Of a DNA stretch of 64,000 nt, positions 48,519-59,715 are shown piece by piece. Numbering within the stretch: the first letter of the stretch is position 1; every line of letters starts with the position of its first letter. Both the position numbers and the translations under genes were made by a program. Source of the stretch: Rhizobium sp. LC145 (GTDB taxonomy: Bacteria; Pseudomonadota; Alphaproteobacteria; Rhizobiales; Rhizobiaceae); NCBI RefSeq assembly GCF_001005825.1, contig NZ_LBHV01000002.1:186001-250000 (forward strand), given 5' to 3'. The notes under the pieces were generated by a model that saw nothing but the letters and a program-made list of their open reading frames with translations, did no database searches and was not told the DNA's origin.

Positions 48519-49298
48519 TCAGGCCTCAGCCTGTCCGGTTTCCTCTGCATCATTGTCCATCGCGAGATTGATCATGCTGCCGCCGAAAAGTCGGTCGCGG
48601 GAATTACGTATGTGCTGAAGCATTGCCTTTTCAGCGCCGCCGGCATCGCGTGCCCGGATTGCTTCATAGATCGCGCTGTGTTCGGCATAAGCCTGTTCAA
48701 GCCCGCGTGGACCATCGGACATCAGCGACTGTCCATGCATCTTCATGCCGACCTGGATGTGTTCGCGAAGAGCCCGTAGCGAGGTTTCGTAGAAGTGATT
48801 GTTCGATGCGTGGATGACCGCCATGTGGAAGGCATAATCCGCATCCTCGCGATGCTTGAACGAGCCGGTCGCCGCATCCAAGAGATCGAGCGCCTCCTTG
48901 ATTTTCCGCAGCGCTGTCCGGTTGTGGCGAAGTGCTGCATGATAGGCGGCGTCGGTCTCGATGGTGATCCGGAATTCGTAACAGCGCTGAATATCGGCGA
49001 TCGTTTCCACCCGGGCAAAGCCGAGTGCCGCCTGCTGGGGCTTGCGCACGTAGCTGCCGGCCCCCTGTCGCGAATAAAGCAGGCCTTCCTCGCGCAAGCG
49101 CTCTAAAGCGTTGCGCAAAACAGGCCTCGAAACGCCGAATTCCTCGGCAAGCGCGAGTTCTGGCGGCAGCTTCTGGTTGGCCGGATACTCGCCATTGACG
49201 ATCCGGCTGTAAAGGAGATGGTAGATGCGATCACCGAGCGACGAGCGTTGTTTAGCCCGCTCCGGTTTCGCTGCACGTTCTTGCGAAGTGGTCGTCAT
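48519..49298 (-). CDS. GntR-family regulator (FCD) of the sugar-acid cluster
   Basis: Regulator of 259 residues. The winged helix is at about 19-88: LGDRIYHLLYSRIVNGEYPA, LPPELALAEEFGVSRPVLRN and ERLREEGLLYSRQGAGSYV. The FCD domain follows, with YEFRITIETDAAYHAALRHN (near 106), DYAFHMAVIHASNNHFY (near 152) and EHSAIYEAIRARDAGGAEKA (near 207). It is coupled to the kinase by a four-base overlap. It is the natural candidate to bind the TTGACAA-type motifs in front of the cluster's transcription units and to sense a sugar acid. Confidence 0.9.
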   Translation of the reverse strand: MTTTSQERAAKPERAKQRSSLGDRIYHLLYSRIVNGEYPANQKLPPELALAEEFGVSRPVLRNALERLREEGLLYSRQGAGSYVRKPQQAALGFARVETIADIQRCYEFRITIETDAAYHAALRHNRTALRKIKEALDLLDAATGSFKHREDADYAFHMAVIHASNNHFYETSLRALREHIQVGMKMHGQSLMSDGPRGLEQAYAEHSAIYEAIRARDAGGAEKAMLQHIRNSRDRLFGGSMINLAMDNDAEETGQAEA

Positions 49299-50383
49299 GG
49301 TTCGCTTTCAGCTGCCGTGGAAATATCTTCCAACGATTCTACGGAAGATGCCAATCGGAGAAGGGTATCGGCATCTCCGAACCCGCCGGATTTTGTAATA
49401 ATTCTCGTGGTTTTGCCACGGAGGACGGCGCTCGCAAGGGGAACGCCGGGAAGAATCTCGTCAAGAACATCGAGCCGCTCGACGCCGAGGCGCTCCAGAA
49501 GCGCGTTGGCGGTTTCTCCGCCACAGGCGAGCAGGGTTGCAGGTTGCGTCGTCTCGATGAGAGCGGAAATTCCATCGGCGAACAAGCCGCCCGCGAGCTC
49601 GGCCGCAACAGCGGCATTTCCGGAGGTCATCTTCGCGATCGTCAGGTCCGATCCGGGCTCGGCTCCCGCCGGCACCCGTCCATTCTCGGCGATCAGGAAG
49701 CCCACGTCCAGCTTTGAGCAAAGCCTTTCGACCTGCGCCTCTGTGATGGGGTCCCGCGAGCCGATAACAAACAGTGCCGGACGCGGAAGCCGGATTTCCG
49801 AAGGTGCCTTGCCATGCGGTTTCAGGTGCCGGGCCAATGCCGCGGCAAGTCCGCGCGCCCCGACAAACAGTGTCGTCTCGGAGCGCGCGAGGCCAACGCA
49901 ATGAACGAGATCCGTATCGCTCTTTGCCTCGGGGATGGCGAGGGGCATTTCCGTTTCGGCAACACGGGAGGCCACGGAGATTGGCCCAATGACGCCGGTT
50001 CCCGTAAGATATCCATCGGTAACAAACCGCCCCATCTCCGGAATGGCCGGCGAGACGAGAAGGCAGGTCCGGCCTGTGCCCTCGGCCAGCAGGCGGGCTT
50101 CCAGCCCGACGTGACCCTTCAGGCGGGAATCCACCTTCTTGAAGATGTAATCCGGAAAGGGAGGTTCGAGCGCGGCAAGAACGGCGGCGATCGCATCCCG
50201 CGCCTGGTTTCGGCCACCTTCCCGCGAGCCGGTGCTGACTGCGCAGACATCGATATCGGACAAGTCGGCCGAGACTAGGGCTTCCGGATGCCGAAGGACG
50301 CAGCAGCGCATGCCGCGGGCCGCGAACATTACCGCGGAATCCAAGGCTCCTGTCAGATCGTCTGCAACGATGAGCGCGAGCAA
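49295..50383 (-). CDS. Four-carbon acid sugar kinase (DUF1537, OtnK/DtnK-like)
   Basis: ATP-dependent kinase of 362 residues from the family that phosphorylates D-threonate, D-erythronate or 3-oxo-tetronates. The substrate-side motif LIVADDLTGALDSAVMFAAR (about 3-22) and the C-terminal ATP-side motif (ACGGETANALLERLGVERLD near 288, then ITKSGGFGDAD near 330) are intact. The start is TTG at 50383, after GGAGGAACCGGAAG. The 3' end is coupled to the GntR gene. The divergent PdxA2 gene is the usual partner, giving 4-phosphothreonate, which PdxA2 then oxidises. Confidence 0.9.
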   Translation of the reverse strand: MLALIVADDLTGALDSAVMFAARGMRCCVLRHPEALVSADLSDIDVCAVSTGSREGGRNQARDAIAAVLAALEPPFPDYIFKKVDSRLKGHVGLEARLLAEGTGRTCLLVSPAIPEMGRFVTDGYLTGTGVIGPISVASRVAETEMPLAIPEAKSDTDLVHCVGLARSETTLFVGARGLAAALARHLKPHGKAPSEIRLPRPALFVIGSRDPITEAQVERLCSKLDVGFLIAENGRVPAGAEPGSDLTIAKMTSGNAAVAAELAGGLFADGISALIETTQPATLLACGGETANALLERLGVERLDVLDEILPGVPLASAVLRGKTTRIITKSGGFGDADTLLRLASSVESLEDISTAAESEP

Positions 50384-50522
50384 GCTTCCGGTTCCTCCAT
50401 GCAGGTAAACATGTAAACAGAAAATGCCTTCGGTTCAATCCTAGAGAGAAATCGTCGATTGAGAAAGCCTTTTAATTCAGGAGGTATTTTTAATCGCTGG
50501 TTCGAATTTTTCGACCGTTGAA

Positions 50523-50577: not shown

Positions 50578-51585
50578 ATGACCCAGGATACGTCACGCGC
50601 GCCGATCGCCATCACGATGGGAGATCCTTCGGGCGTGGGTGCCGAAGTCATCGTCAAGGCAATCGCCGATATTCCAGTAGACAAACGGGGTGGCTTTGTC
50701 GTCATAGGCGATGCCGACACCGTGGAGCGTGCGGCCAAGGTCTGCGGCGTGGATCTTGCTTTCCATCGATATGGTACTGTCGGCGCTTCCGGCAGTCTCG
50801 CGCTGCGCCACGTTTCGGTGGAGGGGCTTCCGGGTGAATTCGGAGTTCTTTCCCCTCGATGTGGCGAGGCAAGCTTCCGCTATATCGAAGCGGCGGTCCG
50901 AATGGCCGAGGCAGGGGAGGCTGCCGGCATCGTCACCGCCCCTATCAACAAAGAAGCGCTCAATGCGGCGGGCCATCACTATGATGGCCATACGGGCATG
51001 CTAGCGGCGCTGACCGGCTCCAAGTCCTCTTGGATGCTGCTTGCGTCCGAGCGCCTGAAGGTCATCCATGTCTCCACCCATGTGTCGCTCCGCACCGCGA
51101 TCGAGCGGGCAAAGCCGGAACGAATTCTCGCGACCATCCGCACCGGACATGAGCACCTGAAGCGGATGGGCTACGACAATCCACGAATTGCCGTCGCCGG
51201 CATAAATCCCCATTGTGGCGAGAGCGGCCTGTTCGGGACCGAGGACGATGATTCCATTCGTCCCGGAGTTGAGGCGGCAATTGCGGAAGGCATCAATGTG
51301 GTGGGGCCGATCTCGGCGGATACGGTCTACCACCGCGCCTATCAAGGCGCTTTCGACCTCGTGATCGCGCAATATCACGATCAAGGCCATATTCCGATCA
51401 AGCTCGTTGCCTTCGACAGCGCCGTCAACGTTTCGCTCGGCCTTCCGATCGACCGGACCTCGGTCGATCATGGGACGGCCTTTGATATTGCGGGCACCGG
51501 CAAAGCCAATCATGTGAACATGCTGGCCGCGCTCGACTACGCGGCACGCCTTGCCGCCAACCGGCAGCACAGGGCCGCGGCATGA
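50578..51585 (+). CDS. pdxA2: 4-phospho-D-threonate/erythronate dehydrogenase, PdxA2-type
   Basis: Metal-dependent oxidising decarboxylase of 335 residues in the PdxA family. It has [20 protein letters not shown] (about 12-31), [20 protein letters not shown] (near 120, metal-site His in DGHT), [20 protein letters not shown] (near 206), and [20 protein letters not shown] (near 263) with [19 protein letters not shown]. PdxA2 members act in threonate catabolism, not vitamin B6 synthesis, and occur beside DUF1537 kinases; that context is present here. The aldolase overlaps its end by four bases. Product is predicted to be dihydroxyacetone phosphate. Confidence 0.9.
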
Positions 51586-53638: not shown

Positions 53639-54721
53639 TCAATCGGCGACCGCGTCCGGAACCACGACAAGCTTTCCGACGAAGTTCTTGGCCATGAAGT
53701 CGCTCTGGGCCCGGTGGAAATCCGAAAGCCTGTAGATCCCTCCGACGAGCGGGCGGATCTTGTCGCTTTCGATGTAACCGACGAGCCGGCGGAAATCGGC
53801 ACGGCTTCCCTGGCTGGAGCCGTGTAGCTCGAGTTGTTTCAAGTACATGGTCCTCAAGTCGAGCTGCACGACCGGTCCGGCGATCGCGCCTGCCGTCGTA
53901 TAGCGACCTTCCGGCCGGAGGATCCTCAGGAGGTCGTTGAACATCGGGCCGGCCACCAGATCCGCCACCACATCGATCGGGGCGCCACCGATCGCTTCAG
54001 CGACGGCTTCCACCAGATTGTCCTGGCCGCGCGTCACCACCGCCTCGGCGCCGATATCGAGCACCGCTTCCTCCTTGCCGGGGCCGACGATTGCAATCGG
54101 AATGGCGCCGCGAGCGCGGGCAAGCTGGATAATGGCCGAGCCAACACCCCCGGAAGCGCCGGTGATGAGCACCCGCTCGCCGGCGGCGAGCCTTGCTCTT
54201 TCCAGCATTCGCTCGCCGGTCAGGTAGGCGCAGCAGAAGGTCGCAAGCTCGATATCGCTCATGCCGGTCTCGACCACATGGGCGTTCTCAGCGGGTAATG
54301 CCATGTATTCCGCATAGCCGCCATCGCGGCCATGACCCATGTAATCGATATCCGCCAGGCTGTCGTCGTCGCGATTGTAGATCGAAAAGTCGACCATCAC
54401 CCGCTCGCCGATACGGGAAGGATCGACGCCTGCGCCAACCGCCACCACGTGACCGACCGTATCGGTGCCCTGAATGCGCGGAAAGGTGAGGGTATTGCCC
54501 TGCCGCCGCCATGTGGAGACAGCGGCGGGGTCATCCTCCGTGCCATAGGCGCCCTGACGCACCCAGACGTCGGTATTGTTCATGCCGCAGGCCGTGACGC
54601 GGATCAGCACTTCACCGGCTGCCGGTTTCGGCACCGGCACGTCCTGCCGGTACACGAGCTTATCCAAACCGCCATGGCCGGTCAGCAGAACGGCCGCCAT
54701 CGTATCGGGTATCGAGATCAT
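53639..54721 (-). CDS. Zinc-type/quinone-oxidoreductase-like alcohol dehydrogenase
   Basis: MDR-superfamily enzyme of 360 residues. The catalytic domain has VTACGMNNTDVWVRQGAYG (about 43-61) and GTDTVGHVVAVGAGVDPSRIG (near 85); the nucleotide-binding domain has VLITGASGGVGSAIIQLARA (about 182-201). The structural zinc cysteines and the metal-ligand GHE motif are missing (GTDTVG), so it is probably a zinc-free quinone-oxidoreductase type. It starts 12 bases after atf on the same strand and ends the asnC-ssd-atf operon, so it likely works in ectoine or amino-acid breakdown. Its reaction is unknown. Confidence 0.85.
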   Translation of the reverse strand: MISIPDTMAAVLLTGHGGLDKLVYRQDVPVPKPAAGEVLIRVTACGMNNTDVWVRQGAYGTEDDPAAVSTWRRQGNTLTFPRIQGTDTVGHVVAVGAGVDPSRIGERVMVDFSIYNRDDDSLADIDYMGHGRDGGYAEYMALPAENAHVVETGMSDIELATFCCAYLTGERMLERARLAAGERVLITGASGGVGSAIIQLARARGAIPIAIVGPGKEEAVLDIGAEAVVTRGQDNLVEAVAEAIGGAPIDVVADLVAGPMFNDLLRILRPEGRYTTAGAIAGPVVQLDLRTMYLKQLELHGSSQGSRADFRRLVGYIESDKIRPLVGGIYRLSDFHRAQSDFMAKNFVGKLVVVPDAVAD

Positions 54722-54733
54722 TGGTCGGCTCCG

Positions 54734-56113
54734 TCAGCGATTTGCGAAGACGTTGTCGATCGCATCGGCCGTGGCCTTCACCACGATATCCGCCTCCTCG
54801 CGGGTGAGGCAGAGCGGTGGCGCAAAGCCTAGGATATCGCCCTGCGGCATCGCCCGGCCAATGACGCCGCGTTCGAGCAACGCCGTTGCGATCTGCGGGC
54901 CGATCTTGCGCGCGGGTTCGAAGAACCTGCGGTCGTCCTTGTCTTCGACGAATTCCACGGCGGCCATCAGGCCGTCGCCGCGTACCTCGCCGACATGCTT
55001 ATGGTCTCCAACGGCCTTGGTCAGTTGGGAGCGGAAGTAGGCGCCGGTCTCTTTAGCATTCTGCACGAGGTCCATCTCGTCGATGAGCTCGAGGTTTGCA
55101 ATGCCGGCTGCCGCGCAGATCGGATGGGAGGAATAGGTCCAGCCGTGGCCGATCGCACCAAGCTCGTCGGAACCCTGCACGAGCACCTGCCAGAACTTGT
55201 CGGAAACGATCGTGCCTGAAAGCGGCGCGTAAGCCGAGGTCAGGCCCTTGGCAATGGTGATGAGGTCCGGCTTCATGCCATAGTGATCGGAACCGAACAT
55301 GGTACCCAGCCGGCCAAAGCCGGTCACGACCTCGTCGGCGACAAGCAGAACATCGTATTTTTCGAGCACCGCCTGGATCTTTTCCCAATAGCCTTTCGGC
55401 GGCGGTACGATGCCGCCAGTGCCGAGGATCGGTTCGCCAATGAAGGCCGCGATGGTCTCCGGGCCTTCGGCGAGGATCAGCTCTTCCAGCTTGTCGGCGC
55501 AATATTGCGAGAACTGTTCCTCGCTCATGGAGCGGTCGGGGCGGCGGAAATAATAGGGTGCTTCGGTGTGAAGAACCGGCACGCGCGGCAGGTCAAAGGC
55601 TTTGTGGAAGAGCTCGAGCCCGGTGAGGCTGCCGGTCATCACGCCGGAGCCGTGATAGCCGCGCCAGCGGGAGATGATCTTCTTCTTTTCCGGCCGTCCG
55701 AGGATGTTGTTGTAGTACCAGATGAGCTTGATGTTGGTCTCGTTGGCATCCGAACCGGAAAGCCCGAAATAGACCCGGCTCATGCCCGCCGGAGCCCGGT
55801 CGATGATCATCTTGGCAAGCGTGATGGAAGCTTCCGTGCCGTGGCCCACATAGGCATGGTAATAGGCAAGGTCCCGCGCCTGTTCGGCGATCGCGTCGGC
55901 GATCTTCTGGCGGCCGTAGCCGACATTGACGCAGTAGAGGCCGGCAAAAGCATCGAGGCTGGTGCGGCCGTTCCTGTCGGTGATGTAGACGCCTTCGCCG
56001 CTGCCGATCACCCGCGTCGGCGTCTCGCCACGCGCGTGCATGCCCATATGGGTCGACGGATGGAAGAAATGGTCCCGGTCCCAGGCGGTGAGTTCGTTGT
56101 TTCTCTCGAGCAT
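54734..56113 (-). CDS. atf: Class III aminotransferase of ectoine catabolism (diaminobutyrate transaminase)
   Basis: PLP enzyme of 459 residues, cytoplasmic, probably converting L-2,4-diaminobutyrate to aspartate semialdehyde. Fold-type I motifs are YFGLSGSDANETNIKLIWYY (about 115-134), VADEVVTGFGRLGTMFGSDH (about 258-277, Asp260 holds the PLP ring nitrogen) and LITIAKGLTSAYAPLSG (Lys289 Schiff base). The start at 56113 has AAAGGA seven bases upstream. It lies 23 bases after ssd. Related genes are named doeD in Halomonas. Substrate assigned from locus context, as the family has many members. Confidence 0.85.
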   Translation of the reverse strand: MLERNNELTAWDRDHFFHPSTHMGMHARGETPTRVIGSGEGVYITDRNGRTSLDAFAGLYCVNVGYGRQKIADAIAEQARDLAYYHAYVGHGTEASITLAKMIIDRAPAGMSRVYFGLSGSDANETNIKLIWYYNNILGRPEKKKIISRWRGYHGSGVMTGSLTGLELFHKAFDLPRVPVLHTEAPYYFRRPDRSMSEEQFSQYCADKLEELILAEGPETIAAFIGEPILGTGGIVPPPKGYWEKIQAVLEKYDVLLVADEVVTGFGRLGTMFGSDHYGMKPDLITIAKGLTSAYAPLSGTIVSDKFWQVLVQGSDELGAIGHGWTYSSHPICAAAGIANLELIDEMDLVQNAKETGAYFRSQLTKAVGDHKHVGEVRGDGLMAAVEFVEDKDDRRFFEPARKIGPQIATALLERGVIGRAMPQGDILGFAPPLCLTREEADIVVKATADAIDNVFANR

Positions 56114-56136: not shown

Positions 56137-57633
56137 TCAGCCTGCGGTGTCGATGCAGAGATATTTGAGTTCGGTGAAAGCCTCGATGCCGTGGCGGGAG
56201 CCCTCACGCCCAAGGCCGGATTGCTTCCAGCCGCCGAAGGGTATCGGCCCGCCGGTGATCTTCACCCGGTTGATGGCGACCATTCCGTATTCGAGGGCGC
56301 GAGCGAGGCGCATCTGACGCGCGCCGTTTTGGGTGACCACATAGGCAACCAGGCCGTATTCGGTGTCATTGGCGCGGACGATGACCTCCTCCTCGGTGTC
56401 GAAGGCGGTAACGGCCGCGACCGGTCCGAAGGTCTCCTCGCGCATGATGTCCGCATCTTGTGGCACATCGACGATAAGCGTCGGTTCGAAGAAGAGCGGA
56501 CCGACGCTGTGGCGCTTGCCGCCGGCAATCAGCCTTGCGCCTCGACCGAGCGCATCCCTTACCTGCGCCTCGACCTTCATCACCGCGCGCTCATGCATCA
56601 GCGGGCCGATGTCTGCATCATCCGTCAATCCGTTGCCGACCTTGAGGGCAGCGATCCGTTTGGCAAAGGCCTCGTTGAAGGCTTCGAGAATGGACCGCTG
56701 TACGAAAATTCGGTTGGCCGCCAGACAATCCTGACCCGAGGTTGCGAACTTGGCGGCGATCGCGATATCGGCCGCTCGATCAATGTTCGCATCCTCGAAG
56801 ATGATGAGAGGCGCATGCCCGCCGAGTTCCATCACCAGATGCTTCATGGTCGGCGCGCATTGGGCGGCAATCAGGCGGCCGATCTCCGTCGATCCCGTAA
56901 AGCTCATGGCCCGGATCCGCGCATCCTCGCAGAGCCTGCCGACGATGGTTGCGGCATCGCCCGTCACCACGTTGAAGACGCCAGGCGGCATTCCGGCACG
57001 CTCGGCCAGTTTGGCAAGCGCCAGCGCAGAAAGCGGCGTCTCGGAAGAAGGATGGGCAACGACCGTGCAGCCGGCAGAAAGGGCCGCTGCCGCTTTGCGG
57101 GTCACCATGGCGGAAGGGAAGTTCCAGGGCGTTGCGATGCCTATGACGCCAAGCGGCTCGCGCCGCACGATCATCTCCGCGCCGGGAAGATGGCTGGTGA
57201 CGCTTTCCGCGTTCACCCGCTTGCCTTCCTCCGCGTACCACTCGATGAAGGAGGCCGCATAATCGATCTCTCCGCGCGCCTCGGCAAGCGGCTTGCCCTG
57301 TTCGAGGGTCATCAGAAGGGCGAGGTCCTCCTTGGCGCCAAGCATCAGCCTATGCCATTCCTTCAGGATCGCGGCGCGTTCCTGGGGCAGTTTCGAGCGC
57401 CAAGCAGGGAATGCTGCCGCGGCGGCGTCGATCGCGAGGCTGGTCTCATCCACTCCGAGGCTCGCCACCCAGGCAAGCGTTGCGGACGTCGCAGGATCGG
57501 TGACCTGAAAGCTCCGGCTGTCGGAACCCGCCACCCAGCGGCCGTTCACATAGGCAAGATCACGCAGGAGATGGCGGTCGGAGAGGCGCGTCAAAGCATC
57601 ATGAAAGGCGGGACGTGCGAAAATTGCGGTCAT
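56137..57633 (-). CDS. ssd: Aspartate-semialdehyde/succinate-semialdehyde dehydrogenase of ectoine catabolism
   Basis: Aldehyde dehydrogenase of 498 residues. NAD-binding element AMSFTGSTEIGRLIAAQCAP (about 228-247), the active glutamate in VMELGGHAPLIIFEDANIDR (near 255) and the catalytic cysteine in ATSGQDCLAANRIFVQ (near 288) are present. Sequence is close to GabD-type enzymes. In ectoine loci this enzyme (ssd or doeC) oxidises aspartate semialdehyde to aspartate. The start at 57633 has AAGGAGGAG upstream. Three 11-bp repeats with 31-bp spacing lie just before it. Confidence 0.87.
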   Translation of the reverse strand: MTAIFARPAFHDALTRLSDRHLLRDLAYVNGRWVAGSDSRSFQVTDPATSATLAWVASLGVDETSLAIDAAAAAFPAWRSKLPQERAAILKEWHRLMLGAKEDLALLMTLEQGKPLAEARGEIDYAASFIEWYAEEGKRVNAESVTSHLPGAEMIVRREPLGVIGIATPWNFPSAMVTRKAAAALSAGCTVVAHPSSETPLSALALAKLAERAGMPPGVFNVVTGDAATIVGRLCEDARIRAMSFTGSTEIGRLIAAQCAPTMKHLVMELGGHAPLIIFEDANIDRAADIAIAAKFATSGQDCLAANRIFVQRSILEAFNEAFAKRIAALKVGNGLTDDADIGPLMHERAVMKVEAQVRDALGRGARLIAGGKRHSVGPLFFEPTLIVDVPQDADIMREETFGPVAAVTAFDTEEEVIVRANDTEYGLVAYVVTQNGARQMRLARALEYGMVAINRVKITGGPIPFGGWKQSGLGREGSRHGIEAFTELKYLCIDTAG

Positions 57634-57681
57634 GGCCAACTCCTCCTTCAAGGGCGTGCCAAGTGTGGCCCGGCCTCAAGC

Positions 57682-57754
57682 GAGAGATTGTCCATTCCGC
57701 AGGGTGGAAATAGAGAGATTGTCTAAACTCGCGGGCCTGCCCGGAGAGACTGTC
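57682..57754. promoter_or_regulatory. Three 31-bp-phased repeats before ssd (AsnC/Lrp sites)
   Basis: GAGAGATTGTC occurs at 57682-57692 and 57713-57723, and GAGAGACTGTC at 57744-57754, exactly 31 bp apart. The third copy lies inside the 3' end of the asnC coding sequence. Regular spacing of about three helical turns is typical of sites wrapped by Lrp/AsnC octamers. They precede ssd by 49 to 121 bases. Confidence 0.6.
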
Positions 57755-58241
57755 TATCGTCACCGCTTGCCGAAAACAGAGCCGAAACCGGTACGCCGGC
57801 CTCCTCCTTCACGGTCTTGGTGACGATATAGGTAAAATATCGCTCGATACCGAGTTCCCGGTCCAAAAGCCCATCGATCAGGCGCTGATAGGCGTCGATA
57901 TCGGCCGTCACGACCTTGGCGATATAGTCGACCCCGCCGCCGACCGACCAGCACGCGGTGATCTCGGGAATGGCGGCCACGGCTCGTTCGAACCTATCGA
58001 AATCACCTTGGCGATGATTGGCGAGCGTGATCTCCACCATGACGCTGGCGATCGGCGCGATCTTGCGCGCAGCAAGGCGCGCATGATAGCCGGCGACGAT
58101 GCCCGCCTTTTCGAGCTTACGCAGGCGCATCCAGCAGGGTGTCGGCGATAGTCCGACCTTCTCGGCCAGCGCCAGCTTGGTGATACGGCCGTCGGCTTGG
58201 ACCGCCTCCAGGATTTTCAGGTCGATTGCGTCGAGCTTCAT
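57723..58241 (-). CDS. asnC: Lrp/AsnC-family regulator of ectoine catabolism (AsnC/DoeX-like)
   Basis: Feast/famine regulator of 172 residues. The helix-turn-helix is at about 2-48 (DAIDLKILEAVQADGRITKL and GLSPTPCWMRLRKLEKAGIV), followed by the ligand-binding RAM domain, where WSVGGGVDYIAKVVTADIDA and YQRLIDGLLDRELGIERYFT are typical. The start at 58241 is preferred to the upstream frame from 58331. It starts the operon asnC-ssd-atf-adh and is divergent from enuR. AsnC-type genes with this neighbourhood (doeX or asnC) control ectoine genes in other bacteria. Candidate binding sites lie before ssd and in the divergent promoter. Confidence 0.88.
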   Translation of the reverse strand: MKLDAIDLKILEAVQADGRITKLALAEKVGLSPTPCWMRLRKLEKAGIVAGYHARLAARKIAPIASVMVEITLANHRQGDFDRFERAVAAIPEITACWSVGGGVDYIAKVVTADIDAYQRLIDGLLDRELGIERYFTYIVTKTVKEEAGVPVSALFSASGDDRQSLRAGPRV

Positions 58242-58257
58242 CGGGTGCCTTGTCGTG

Positions 58258-58299
58258 CATTGTTGAGAATGACAATGAAAACTCGTTTTGCCATTGTCA
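58258..58299. promoter_or_regulatory. Candidate operator in the asnC/enuR divergent promoter
   Basis: TGACAATG (58270-58277) and CATTGTCA (58292-58299) form an 8-bp inverted repeat, with a further CATTGT at 58258-58263. The 88-base spacer holds both promoters. Either AsnC or EnuR could bind here. Confidence 0.5.
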
Positions 58300-58329
58300 A
58301 TTGAACTGATTTTAAGCACAGTCGAAATC

Positions 58330-59715
58330 ATGACAAATTGGCGCCCCGATCCATCCCAGCTCCGCCGCCCGGCCTATCTTTCGCTCGCCGAGCAGATCGC
58401 GCGTGCGATCCAGGAGGGCAAGCTCGCCAATGGGACGAAGCTGCCGACGCATCGTCGCATGGCCGACGATCTCGATCTTTCGGTCCAGACGGTTAGCCGC
58501 GCCTATGACGATCTCATCCGTCGGGGGCTGATTTCCGGGGAGATCGGCCGAGGCAGTTTCGTGCAGACGCGTCCGCGCGAGCCGGAGCCACCCTATCTGC
58601 CCGAAAGGCTGGGCGAGGTCATCGATCTTTCGATCTTGAAGCCCGTCTGCGAGCATTTCCATCTGGAAAAGATGCGCGAAGCCTTCGGCTGGCTTTCGGA
58701 AAACCTGCCGCCAAGTTCGGCTCTGTCGTTCCGGCCGAACATGGTGTTTCCGCGTCACCGGGCAATCGGTGCGGAATGGCTCTCCCATTGCGGGCTGCAG
58801 GTTTCACCGCTCAACGTCAGTCTCACCAATGGCGCGACCTCCGGCATGACGGTTGCGTTGATGAGCGTCGCGCCGCCCGGATCGATCGTCGCGACTGAGG
58901 CGATCAGCCATCATACGCTCGTGCCTCTCTCCACCTATCTCGGCATTCACCTTGAAGGACTGCCGATCGACGACGAGGGCATGATCCCCGAGGCGCTGGA
59001 CGAAGCCTGCCGCACAAGCCCTATCCGGGCGGTTTTCCTCCAGCCTTCTGTCATCAATCCGAGAGCGACCTTGATGAGTGCGAAACGCCGTGAGGCACTT
59101 GCCGAAGTCGCCAGGAAGCACGACATCGCGATCATCGAGAACGATATTCTCGGTCCCTTGGTCACCGACCGATCGCCGCCGCTGGCGGCGTATGCGCCAG
59201 AACGCACGCTCTACATCACCAGTTTCACCAAGATCACCGTGCCCGGTCTGCGCATCGGTTATCTCGTCGCGCCGGACCGCTATGTGGCAGCCGTCGCCAA
59301 CCGGCATCTGGTATCGAACTGGATGGCAACCCCGGCGATTGCCGAGATCGCCACGCATTGGGTAAGCGACGGCACCGCAGCGGCGTTGGTCGAGTGGCAG
59401 CGCCGGGCTCTGGCCAGCCGCCACGATATTGCCCAGGAAACGCTTGCGGGGCTGCGCTACTATTCGCATCCCCAAAGCCTGCATGTCTGGCTGCCGCTTA
59501 CCGATCCGCATACCGAGGAAGGATTCGTGTCGCAGGCCAGGCTGCGCGGGGTTGCCATCGCGCCGGGAACCTCCTTCCGCACCGCCGGTCAGGGCGGGGC
59601 GTCGGCCGTTCGTATTTCGCTCGGCTCGACGTCGGAAGCGGATCTGAGAACCGGGCTTGGTGTGGTCGCTTCGCTTGCCCAGGGAAATCCCGAGGCGCTG
59701 CTGCTTGCGATTTGA
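58330..59715 (+). CDS. enuR: MocR-family regulator of ectoine/hydroxyectoine utilisation (EnuR)
   Basis: Regulator of 461 residues: GntR winged helix at about 15-85 (PAYLSLAEQIARAIQEGKLA, THRRMADDLDLSVQTVSRAY) joined to an aminotransferase-fold domain with VSLTNGATSGMTVALMSV (about 163) and IIENDILGPLVTDRS (near 268). The PLP-binding lysine is in YITSFTKITVPGLRIGY (Lys301). In studied EnuR proteins PLP on this lysine reacts with diaminobutyrate-type inducers to relieve repression. Divergence from asnC and position before ehuABCD support this name. The start at 58330 has a weak ribosome site; the frame is open to 58288. Confidence 0.88.
   Translation: MTNWRPDPSQLRRPAYLSLAEQIARAIQEGKLANGTKLPTHRRMADDLDLSVQTVSRAYDDLIRRGLISGEIGRGSFVQTRPREPEPPYLPERLGEVIDLSILKPVCEHFHLEKMREAFGWLSENLPPSSALSFRPNMVFPRHRAIGAEWLSHCGLQVSPLNVSLTNGATSGMTVALMSVAPPGSIVATEAISHHTLVPLSTYLGIHLEGLPIDDEGMIPEALDEACRTSPIRAVFLQPSVINPRATLMSAKRREALAEVARKHDIAIIENDILGPLVTDRSPPLAAYAPERTLYITSFTKITVPGLRIGYLVAPDRYVAAVANRHLVSNWMATPAIAEIATHWVSDGTAAALVEWQRRALASRHDIAQETLAGLRYYSHPQSLHVWLPLTDPHTEEGFVSQARLRGVAIAPGTSFRTAGQGGASAVRISLGSTSEADLRTGLGVVASLAQGNPEALLLAI

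Follow-up and report, generated by a model that had tools for sequence, protein, structure and literature searches.

AsnC-type regulators of ectoine catabolism have been described in Ruegeria and in Halomonas. Mutation of asnC in Ruegeria led to the loss of operon activation and of growth on ectoine as carbon source, and asnC-ssd-atf was reported to lie within one long transcript (PMC5924519). In the accessible parts of two reports, the Ruegeria regulator is presented as an activator that growth on ectoine requires, while its signal is described as unclear and its function as untested (PMC5924519, PMC8739950). In Halomonas, doeABX and doeCD do not share a transcript, and purified DoeX of H. 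elongata shifted a 46-nt fragment located before doeA (PMC3187862). For the targets of Lrp/AsnC proteins, a general statement that itself cites another work gives periodicities of 7–8, 18 or 30–31 bp (PMC8707732), and a spacing of two or three helical turns is given for Lrp-family sites (PMC2995911). Here we describe a repeat array with a 31-bp step before the ssd gene of a rhizobial ectoine cluster.

The ectoine locus and its repeat array

The locus lies in a 64-kb stretch of DNA from Rhizobium sp. LC145, called the window in the following, to which all coordinates refer. The minus strand carries asnC/doeX for a Lrp/AsnC-family regulator (57723..58241, 172 aa with the start chosen at MKLDAIDL; listed ORF start 58331), the aldehyde dehydrogenase gene ssd/doeC as the first gene downstream of the array (56137..57633 with the ATG chosen; listed ORF start 57651), the class-III aminotransferase gene atf/doeD (54734..56113; listed ORF start 56128) and adh for a zinc-binding dehydrogenase, which is likely the third gene of the operon (53639..54721). 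The plus strand carries enuR/ehuR, encoding a MocR-type ectoine regulator (58330..59715; NF052286 above cut-off), as well as ehuA, ehuB and, farther along, eutA. The order asnC-ssd-atf beside enuR, ehuA, ehuB and eutA is the context expected for a DoeX orthologue. The AsnC protein has the HTH and ligand-binding domains of the Lrp/AsnC family (PF13404, PF13412 and PF01037, all above cut-off) and E. coli Lrp (2gqq) as best solved relative; none of the NCBIfam equivalog models matched it at the model's own cut-off.

On the plus strand, three 11-mers occupy positions 57682-57692 (GAGAGATTGTC), 57713-57723 (GAGAGATTGTC) and 57744-57754 (GAGAGACTGTC), with start-to-start steps of 31 and 31 bp. This is the threefold GAGAGA(T/C)TGTC with an exact 31-bp period that a preceding sequence-only reading had reported for 57682-57754, and its statement that the repeats lie partly in the 3' end of asnC also held, with one copy inside the gene, the middle one overlapping the stop codon and the third intergenic. 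The true repeat unit is longer than 11 bp: it is a 15-bp imperfect palindrome, TAGACARTCTCTCTA-like when read on the minus (coding) strand and with the weight-matrix consensus TAGASAWWWTSTCTA. On this strand, site 1 (TAGACAGTCTCTCCG, 57742..57756) lies within the asnC 3' end, site 2 (TAGACAATCTCTCTA, 57711..57725) contains as its first TAG the asnC stop codon of this genome, and site 3 (TGGACAATCTCTCGC, 57680..57694) is intergenic with its centre 54 bp before the ssd ATG. Centre-to-centre distances of the palindromes are likewise 31/31 bp, and the earlier assignment of this step to the Lrp/AsnC type of spacing agrees with the published 30–31-bp periodicity and two- or three-turn spacing, as far as these are given in the accessible text of the sources (PMC8707732, PMC2995911).

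With up to one mismatch, the three copies were the sole matches to GAGAGAYTGTC in the 64-kb window. As a lone word it is not rare, with a mean of 2.1 matches in shuffled windows and three matches reached in 32 of 100 shuffles. No other 11-mer triple (up to one mismatch, any equal step of 12–60 bp) was found in the whole window, and 40 simulations with matching first-order composition contained two such triples in total. The array is therefore rare because of its equal spacing and not because of the 11-bp word itself.

Two other features of the window were recorded. A lone strong match to the weight matrix (score 18.5, TAGAGAGAAATCGTCGATT) at 50451 lies between the divergent ORFs 49295-50383 (minus strand) and 50578-51585 (plus strand) and is without a 31-bp partner among matches scoring at least 10; a shuffled window is expected to hold 0.25 matches at a score of at least 15, and the match at 50451 is probably due to chance. 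In the 3' end of asnC, a terminator-like hairpin with a T-rich tail is located at 57784-57803 on the minus strand (one found in 57600-58400, 0.6 expected by chance), which could split the asnC and ssd transcripts.

Conservation of the array and its linkage to ssd

Within the genus, AsnC at an identity of at least 87% was found in 7 of 57 genomes, the own genome included, and all seven show three repeats at 31/31 bp. In the alignment of same-genus loci, the repeats appear as conserved blocks and the spacers vary in sequence but not in length, while the position of the asnC stop shifts among species. Three more genomes of the genus contain AsnC at 58–61% identity, and two of these have ssd adjacent (L008 and L009, about 61%) and show no recognisable array before ssd, representing a second asnC-ssd type. 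The absence of the repeats from close relatives with the same regulator had been named as an observation that would speak against the sequence-only reading: the repeats are kept in all seven genomes with closely related AsnC but are unrecognisable in the two loci at 61%.

Searching the family for a repeat pair at a 31-bp step (up to two mismatches) yielded 26 places in 18 of 394 genomes and 11 of 109 genera. All 26 places sit between asnC and ssd homologues, and the same pattern read backwards had no match in the 394 genomes. In L034, repeat and genes are on opposite strands. The own genome contains no second pair with fewer than three mismatches; the sole other pair, with three mismatches, is on another contig, and its 3-kb locus matches neither asnC nor ssd.

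A set of named genomes was obtained by an AsnC-alignment scan, from which the best 80 of 550 relatives were taken, comprising Rhizobium, Sinorhizobium/Ensifer, Neorhizobium, Shinella, Mycoplana, Mesorhizobium and other genera. In 73 of these 80, ssd follows downstream in the orientation of asnC (L078, L105, L109, L113, L114, L132 and L136 were dropped), and a symmetric weight matrix was derived from the asnC-ssd gaps of the 73 loci and five same-genus loci. The best three sites chosen without any spacing rule stood at 31/31 in 64 of these 78 gaps, and when steps of 28–34 bp were allowed, exactly 31/31, corresponding to about three helical turns, was obtained in 63 of the 73 loci. A rigid 31/31 triple scored at least 25 in 68 of the 73 gaps (best 80 of 550) and at most -1.2 elsewhere in those loci; since the matrix was trained on the loci it scored, this shows uniformity and uniqueness rather than independent discovery, and the cut-off of 25 was set after the scores were seen. 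Together with the 18 of 394 family genomes, these gaps answer in the affirmative the question whether 31-bp repeats precede ssd in other ectoine loci, which the earlier reading had put forward as a check. Low rigid scores came from five rows with a 30- or 32-bp step (L072, L089, L093, L108 and L123). Per-position conservation over 62 rows, which are not strictly independent and of which the same five have one or more sites outside the common register, showed three peaks with spacers of low conservation between them. In Mesorhizobium the register is ambiguous, as 31/27 or 29/29 fits better in five loci. Some species have a site inverted in place with the spacing held (TAGAGAGATTGTCTA; L097 compared to L064), as expected for a DNA dyad. 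Three 15-bp imperfect palindromes, scored with a matrix that is symmetric by construction, and the in-place inversions are what palindromic dimer sites should present. In 49 of the 73 loci (best 80 of 550), site 1 opens with a TAG that is precisely the asnC stop codon.

For 64 of the 73 loci from the best 80 of 550, the centre of site 3 lies 50–56 bp upstream of the ssd start. In eight of them the gap between asnC and ssd exceeds 250 bp (281–816 bp), and six of these eight (L066, L075, L093, L108, L128 and L130) still have site 3 at 51–61 bp before ssd; in the exceptions L122 and L065 it precedes the ssd start used by 98 and 261 bp, respectively. The scan without a spacing rule recovered just sites 2 and 3 in L128 and L130. 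Where ssd is located beyond enuR on the strand opposite to asnC (L132 and L136), the triple is found 56 bp before the relocated ssd, with scores of 18 and 23 that are under the cut-off of 25 but far over background. L113 lacks ssd after asnC and has atf next; here the triple is kept with a score of 37.7, and site 3 precedes atf by 81 bp. The array is absent from L109, which also lacks ssd and most of atf, and L105 and L114, which have asnC without ssd in the stretch examined, show no array there. The array belongs to ssd-atf and not to the end of asnC. The earlier proposal of an ssd control region apart from asnC is supported by six of the long-gap loci, L132, L136 and L113, in which the array stays or moves with ssd/atf. 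Within 130 bp upstream of asnC, no site with a score of at least 12 was detected in the 80 loci (best 80 of 550), indicating that there is no autoregulation through the array motif. Circularity is least in three lines of evidence: the control with the reversed pattern, the loci where ssd has moved or is missing, and the lag tests that use no motif.

These lag tests were applied outside the family, where Leisingera has two site-like blocks at a distance of 31 bp, of which the second precedes ssd by 52 bp. In a motif-free direct-repeat test on 13 alphaproteobacterial loci, lag 31 was top of 34 lags (8.69 versus 7.43 in shuffles, sd 0.33; reached by 0 of 500 shuffles). With four loci added, to a total of 17 from which the same-family L191 was left out, lag 31 was first of 26 (8.53 versus 7.49, sd 0.32; reached by 0 of 300 shuffles). 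For the 17 loci, a test for two palindromes ranked 31 first and a test for three palindromes ranked it second, after 27; within the family, the two-site version ranked 31 15th of 26 and the three-site version ranked it first. Nine loci outside the class again had direct lag 31 first (8.67 versus 7.45). Both palindrome tests were negative for these nine, so the reach of the 31-bp pattern beyond the class is uncertain and the direct-lag result alone was used. Outside the family, the sequence drifts and 31 stays the best direct-repeat lag. This raises the possibility, which we put forward tentatively, that the spacing of 31 bp is more ancient and more strictly constrained than the sequence of the sites. 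In Alphaproteobacteria, and perhaps beyond, ectoine AsnC proteins might then have retained a phased wrapping by several dimers over the ssd promoter, with a recognition sequence that changes along with the protein. The first site includes the asnC stop codon in most related loci, and there a single piece of DNA might be both the end of the gene for the regulator and the operator that its product targets.

Candidate binding proteins and possible promoter architecture

With a probability of about 0.8, we regard the array as a phased operator of the adjacent AsnC/DoeX, at which three dimers would sit on one DNA face over the ssd -35 region, likely activating ssd-atf-adh. One AsnC dimer would bind each 15-bp palindrome, and the step of 31 bp, approximately three turns, would put the three dimers on the same face of the helix and permit cooperative binding. 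Judged by Lrp-family precedent, the DNA may be bent or wrapped over roughly 80–100 bp. Site 3 would cover the -35 region of a weak ssd promoter, and AsnC would most likely activate ssd-atf-adh when ectoine breakdown products are present, such that control of ssd would be separate from the asnC promoter, which carries EnuR-type sites. Activation is favoured over repression because the Ruegeria asnC mutant loses activation.

Site 3 is placed over the -35 region because a weakly conserved TGnNANNCT-like box, found 16–24 bp after the site-3 centre in the 62-row conservation, was read as an extended -10 element. In the window this box is poor, namely CACACT one base further on (57662..57667, minus strand, 20–25 bp after the site-3 centre), which is a low-confidence candidate for a weak -10 hexamer suggested by cross-species conservation. 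Site 3 would then be near -31 of the guessed start, a position that activators do not usually take and that would also fit repression. A simple sigma-70 scan returned no promoter before ssd. A sigma-54 promoter after site 3 was also considered by inspecting the aligned loci by eye and was dropped as not consistent.

An EnuR homologue adjoins the array in all 18 genomes from the pattern scan, and EnuR acts as a repressor of ectoine genes. Direct repeats spaced by two or three turns are frequent targets of MocR dimers. A survey of MocR regulators, in its accessible parts, reports two or three direct repeats in 27% of regulons and assigns doeC, doeD and doeX to the EutR/EnuR regulon (PMC5320631). 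The array might accordingly be read as the operator of EnuR or of another MocR-type protein. As AsnC and EnuR both stand beside the array in 18 of 18 genomes, and the named loci were fetched via AsnC, co-occurrence alone cannot choose AsnC. However, EnuR is predicted to bind another palindrome, given as ATTGTnnnnnnACAAT in the available text (PMC8739950). In those 50 of the 73 loci (best 80 of 550) that have an asnC-ssd gap below 130 bp, the EnuR-type motif (up to two mismatches, spacer 4–8) occurred upstream of asnC in 37 of 50, upstream of ssd in 3 of 50 and in shuffled sequences in 9 of 50, so the ATTGTnnnnnnACAAT palindrome is not a feature of the array. Of the 73 loci (best 80 of 550), 18 have no close EnuR beside asnC (75–89% identity in the others), and two or more sites can still be recognised in each of the 18. 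The best long genome-wide EnuR match in these 18 was 51% once and 32–39% in 17, among the matches listed. A whole-genome search covering the 18 and three more, in sequences of unstated completeness, gave, among the matches listed, best long matches of 84% in the genome of L113, the locus without adjacent EnuR or ssd, 51% in that of L123, 37–39% in eleven with a MocR protein about 3.7 kb downstream of asnC, and 32–37% for L080, L102, L106, L111, L116 and L127. What speaks for a MocR-type binder in the enuR-less genomes is that they carry other MocR proteins with 31–39% identity over most of the length, as well as N-terminal matches of 80–89 residues at 45–48%, again among the matches listed. 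On motif placement and co-occurrence, EnuR was disfavoured as binder of the array; we regard an operator of EnuR or of another MocR-type protein as unlikely, and the EnuR-type palindrome between asnC and enuR (ATTGTtgagaatgACAAT, 58259..58276, unstranded, spacer 8 versus the published 6) is the likely EnuR site of this locus, apart from the array. In eleven Rhizobium loci, including R. tropici, R. rhizogenes and R. lusitanum, the usual enuR is absent beside asnC (L074, L086, L091, L099, L104, L112, L115, L118, L119, L120 and L124), and a MocR-type protein of 36–39% identity is encoded about 3.7 kb downstream of asnC.

Binding by another, non-local regulator is similarly improbable. In its favour, NtrYX and others affect ectoine use in Ruegeria according to the accessible text of PMC5924519. 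Other copies would be expected for a global regulator, but the pair is confined to asnC-ssd clusters in all 18 family genomes and the own genome lacks a second close pair. That the repeats are an RNA element, the remnant of a mobile repeat or a product of chance appears hardly credible: each unit could form a tiny hairpin, but Rfam gave no match for 57400-58400 up to E = 1, and the RNA fold has a z-score of -0.94, with 40 of 200 shuffles folding equally well. Inversion of sites in place between species with the spacing held fits a DNA dyad, and conservation across genera as well as one equal-step triple in the window against two in 40 simulated windows argue against remnants or chance. A dedicated local binder fits best and leaves AsnC as the candidate, whose presence in every named locus is partly by construction. 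In rhizobia and relatives, the three near-palindromic sites make up a control region of long conservation that precedes the final genes of ectoine breakdown, and very probably AsnC lands there. The targets of the ectoine-cluster AsnC had not been pinned down there before, and the array would provide its exact DNA target. It would also explain how ssd-atf could be controlled apart from the EnuR-controlled promoters and may serve as a small natural model of the way in which proteins of the Lrp type recognise spacing.

Comparison with known systems

The sites of Ss-LrpB from Sulfolobus solfataricus are 15 bp in size. As proposed for the array, the Ss-LrpB target contains three sites for Lrp-family dimers, and Ss-LrpB wraps about 100 bp round three interacting dimers (PMC2995911). 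In contrast to the array, which is bacterial, lies before an ectoine ssd operon, has another site sequence and is known from sequence alone, the Ss-LrpB system is archaeal and located in the regulator's own control region. The 30–31-bp step is shared with the general periodicity statement for Lrp/AsnC targets, which, in the part available, does not concern ectoine genes (PMC8707732).

DoeX of Halomonas elongata resembles the regulator described here as an AsnC-type protein encoded beside doeC/doeD, with doeCD transcribed apart from doeABX. However, the fragment bound in H. elongata precedes doeA and not doeC, and the accessible text gives neither motif nor spacing (PMC3187862). The operators of EnuR/EhuR share the gene cluster and the palindromic nature of the sites (PMC8739950, PMC5320631), but they are of the ATTGTnnnnnnACAAT type and are located here upstream of asnC and not before ssd. 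In the openly accessible literature on ectoine regulators, Lrp and MocR, we found no published description of this array. It would add a further case to the known phased operators of Lrp/AsnC proteins.
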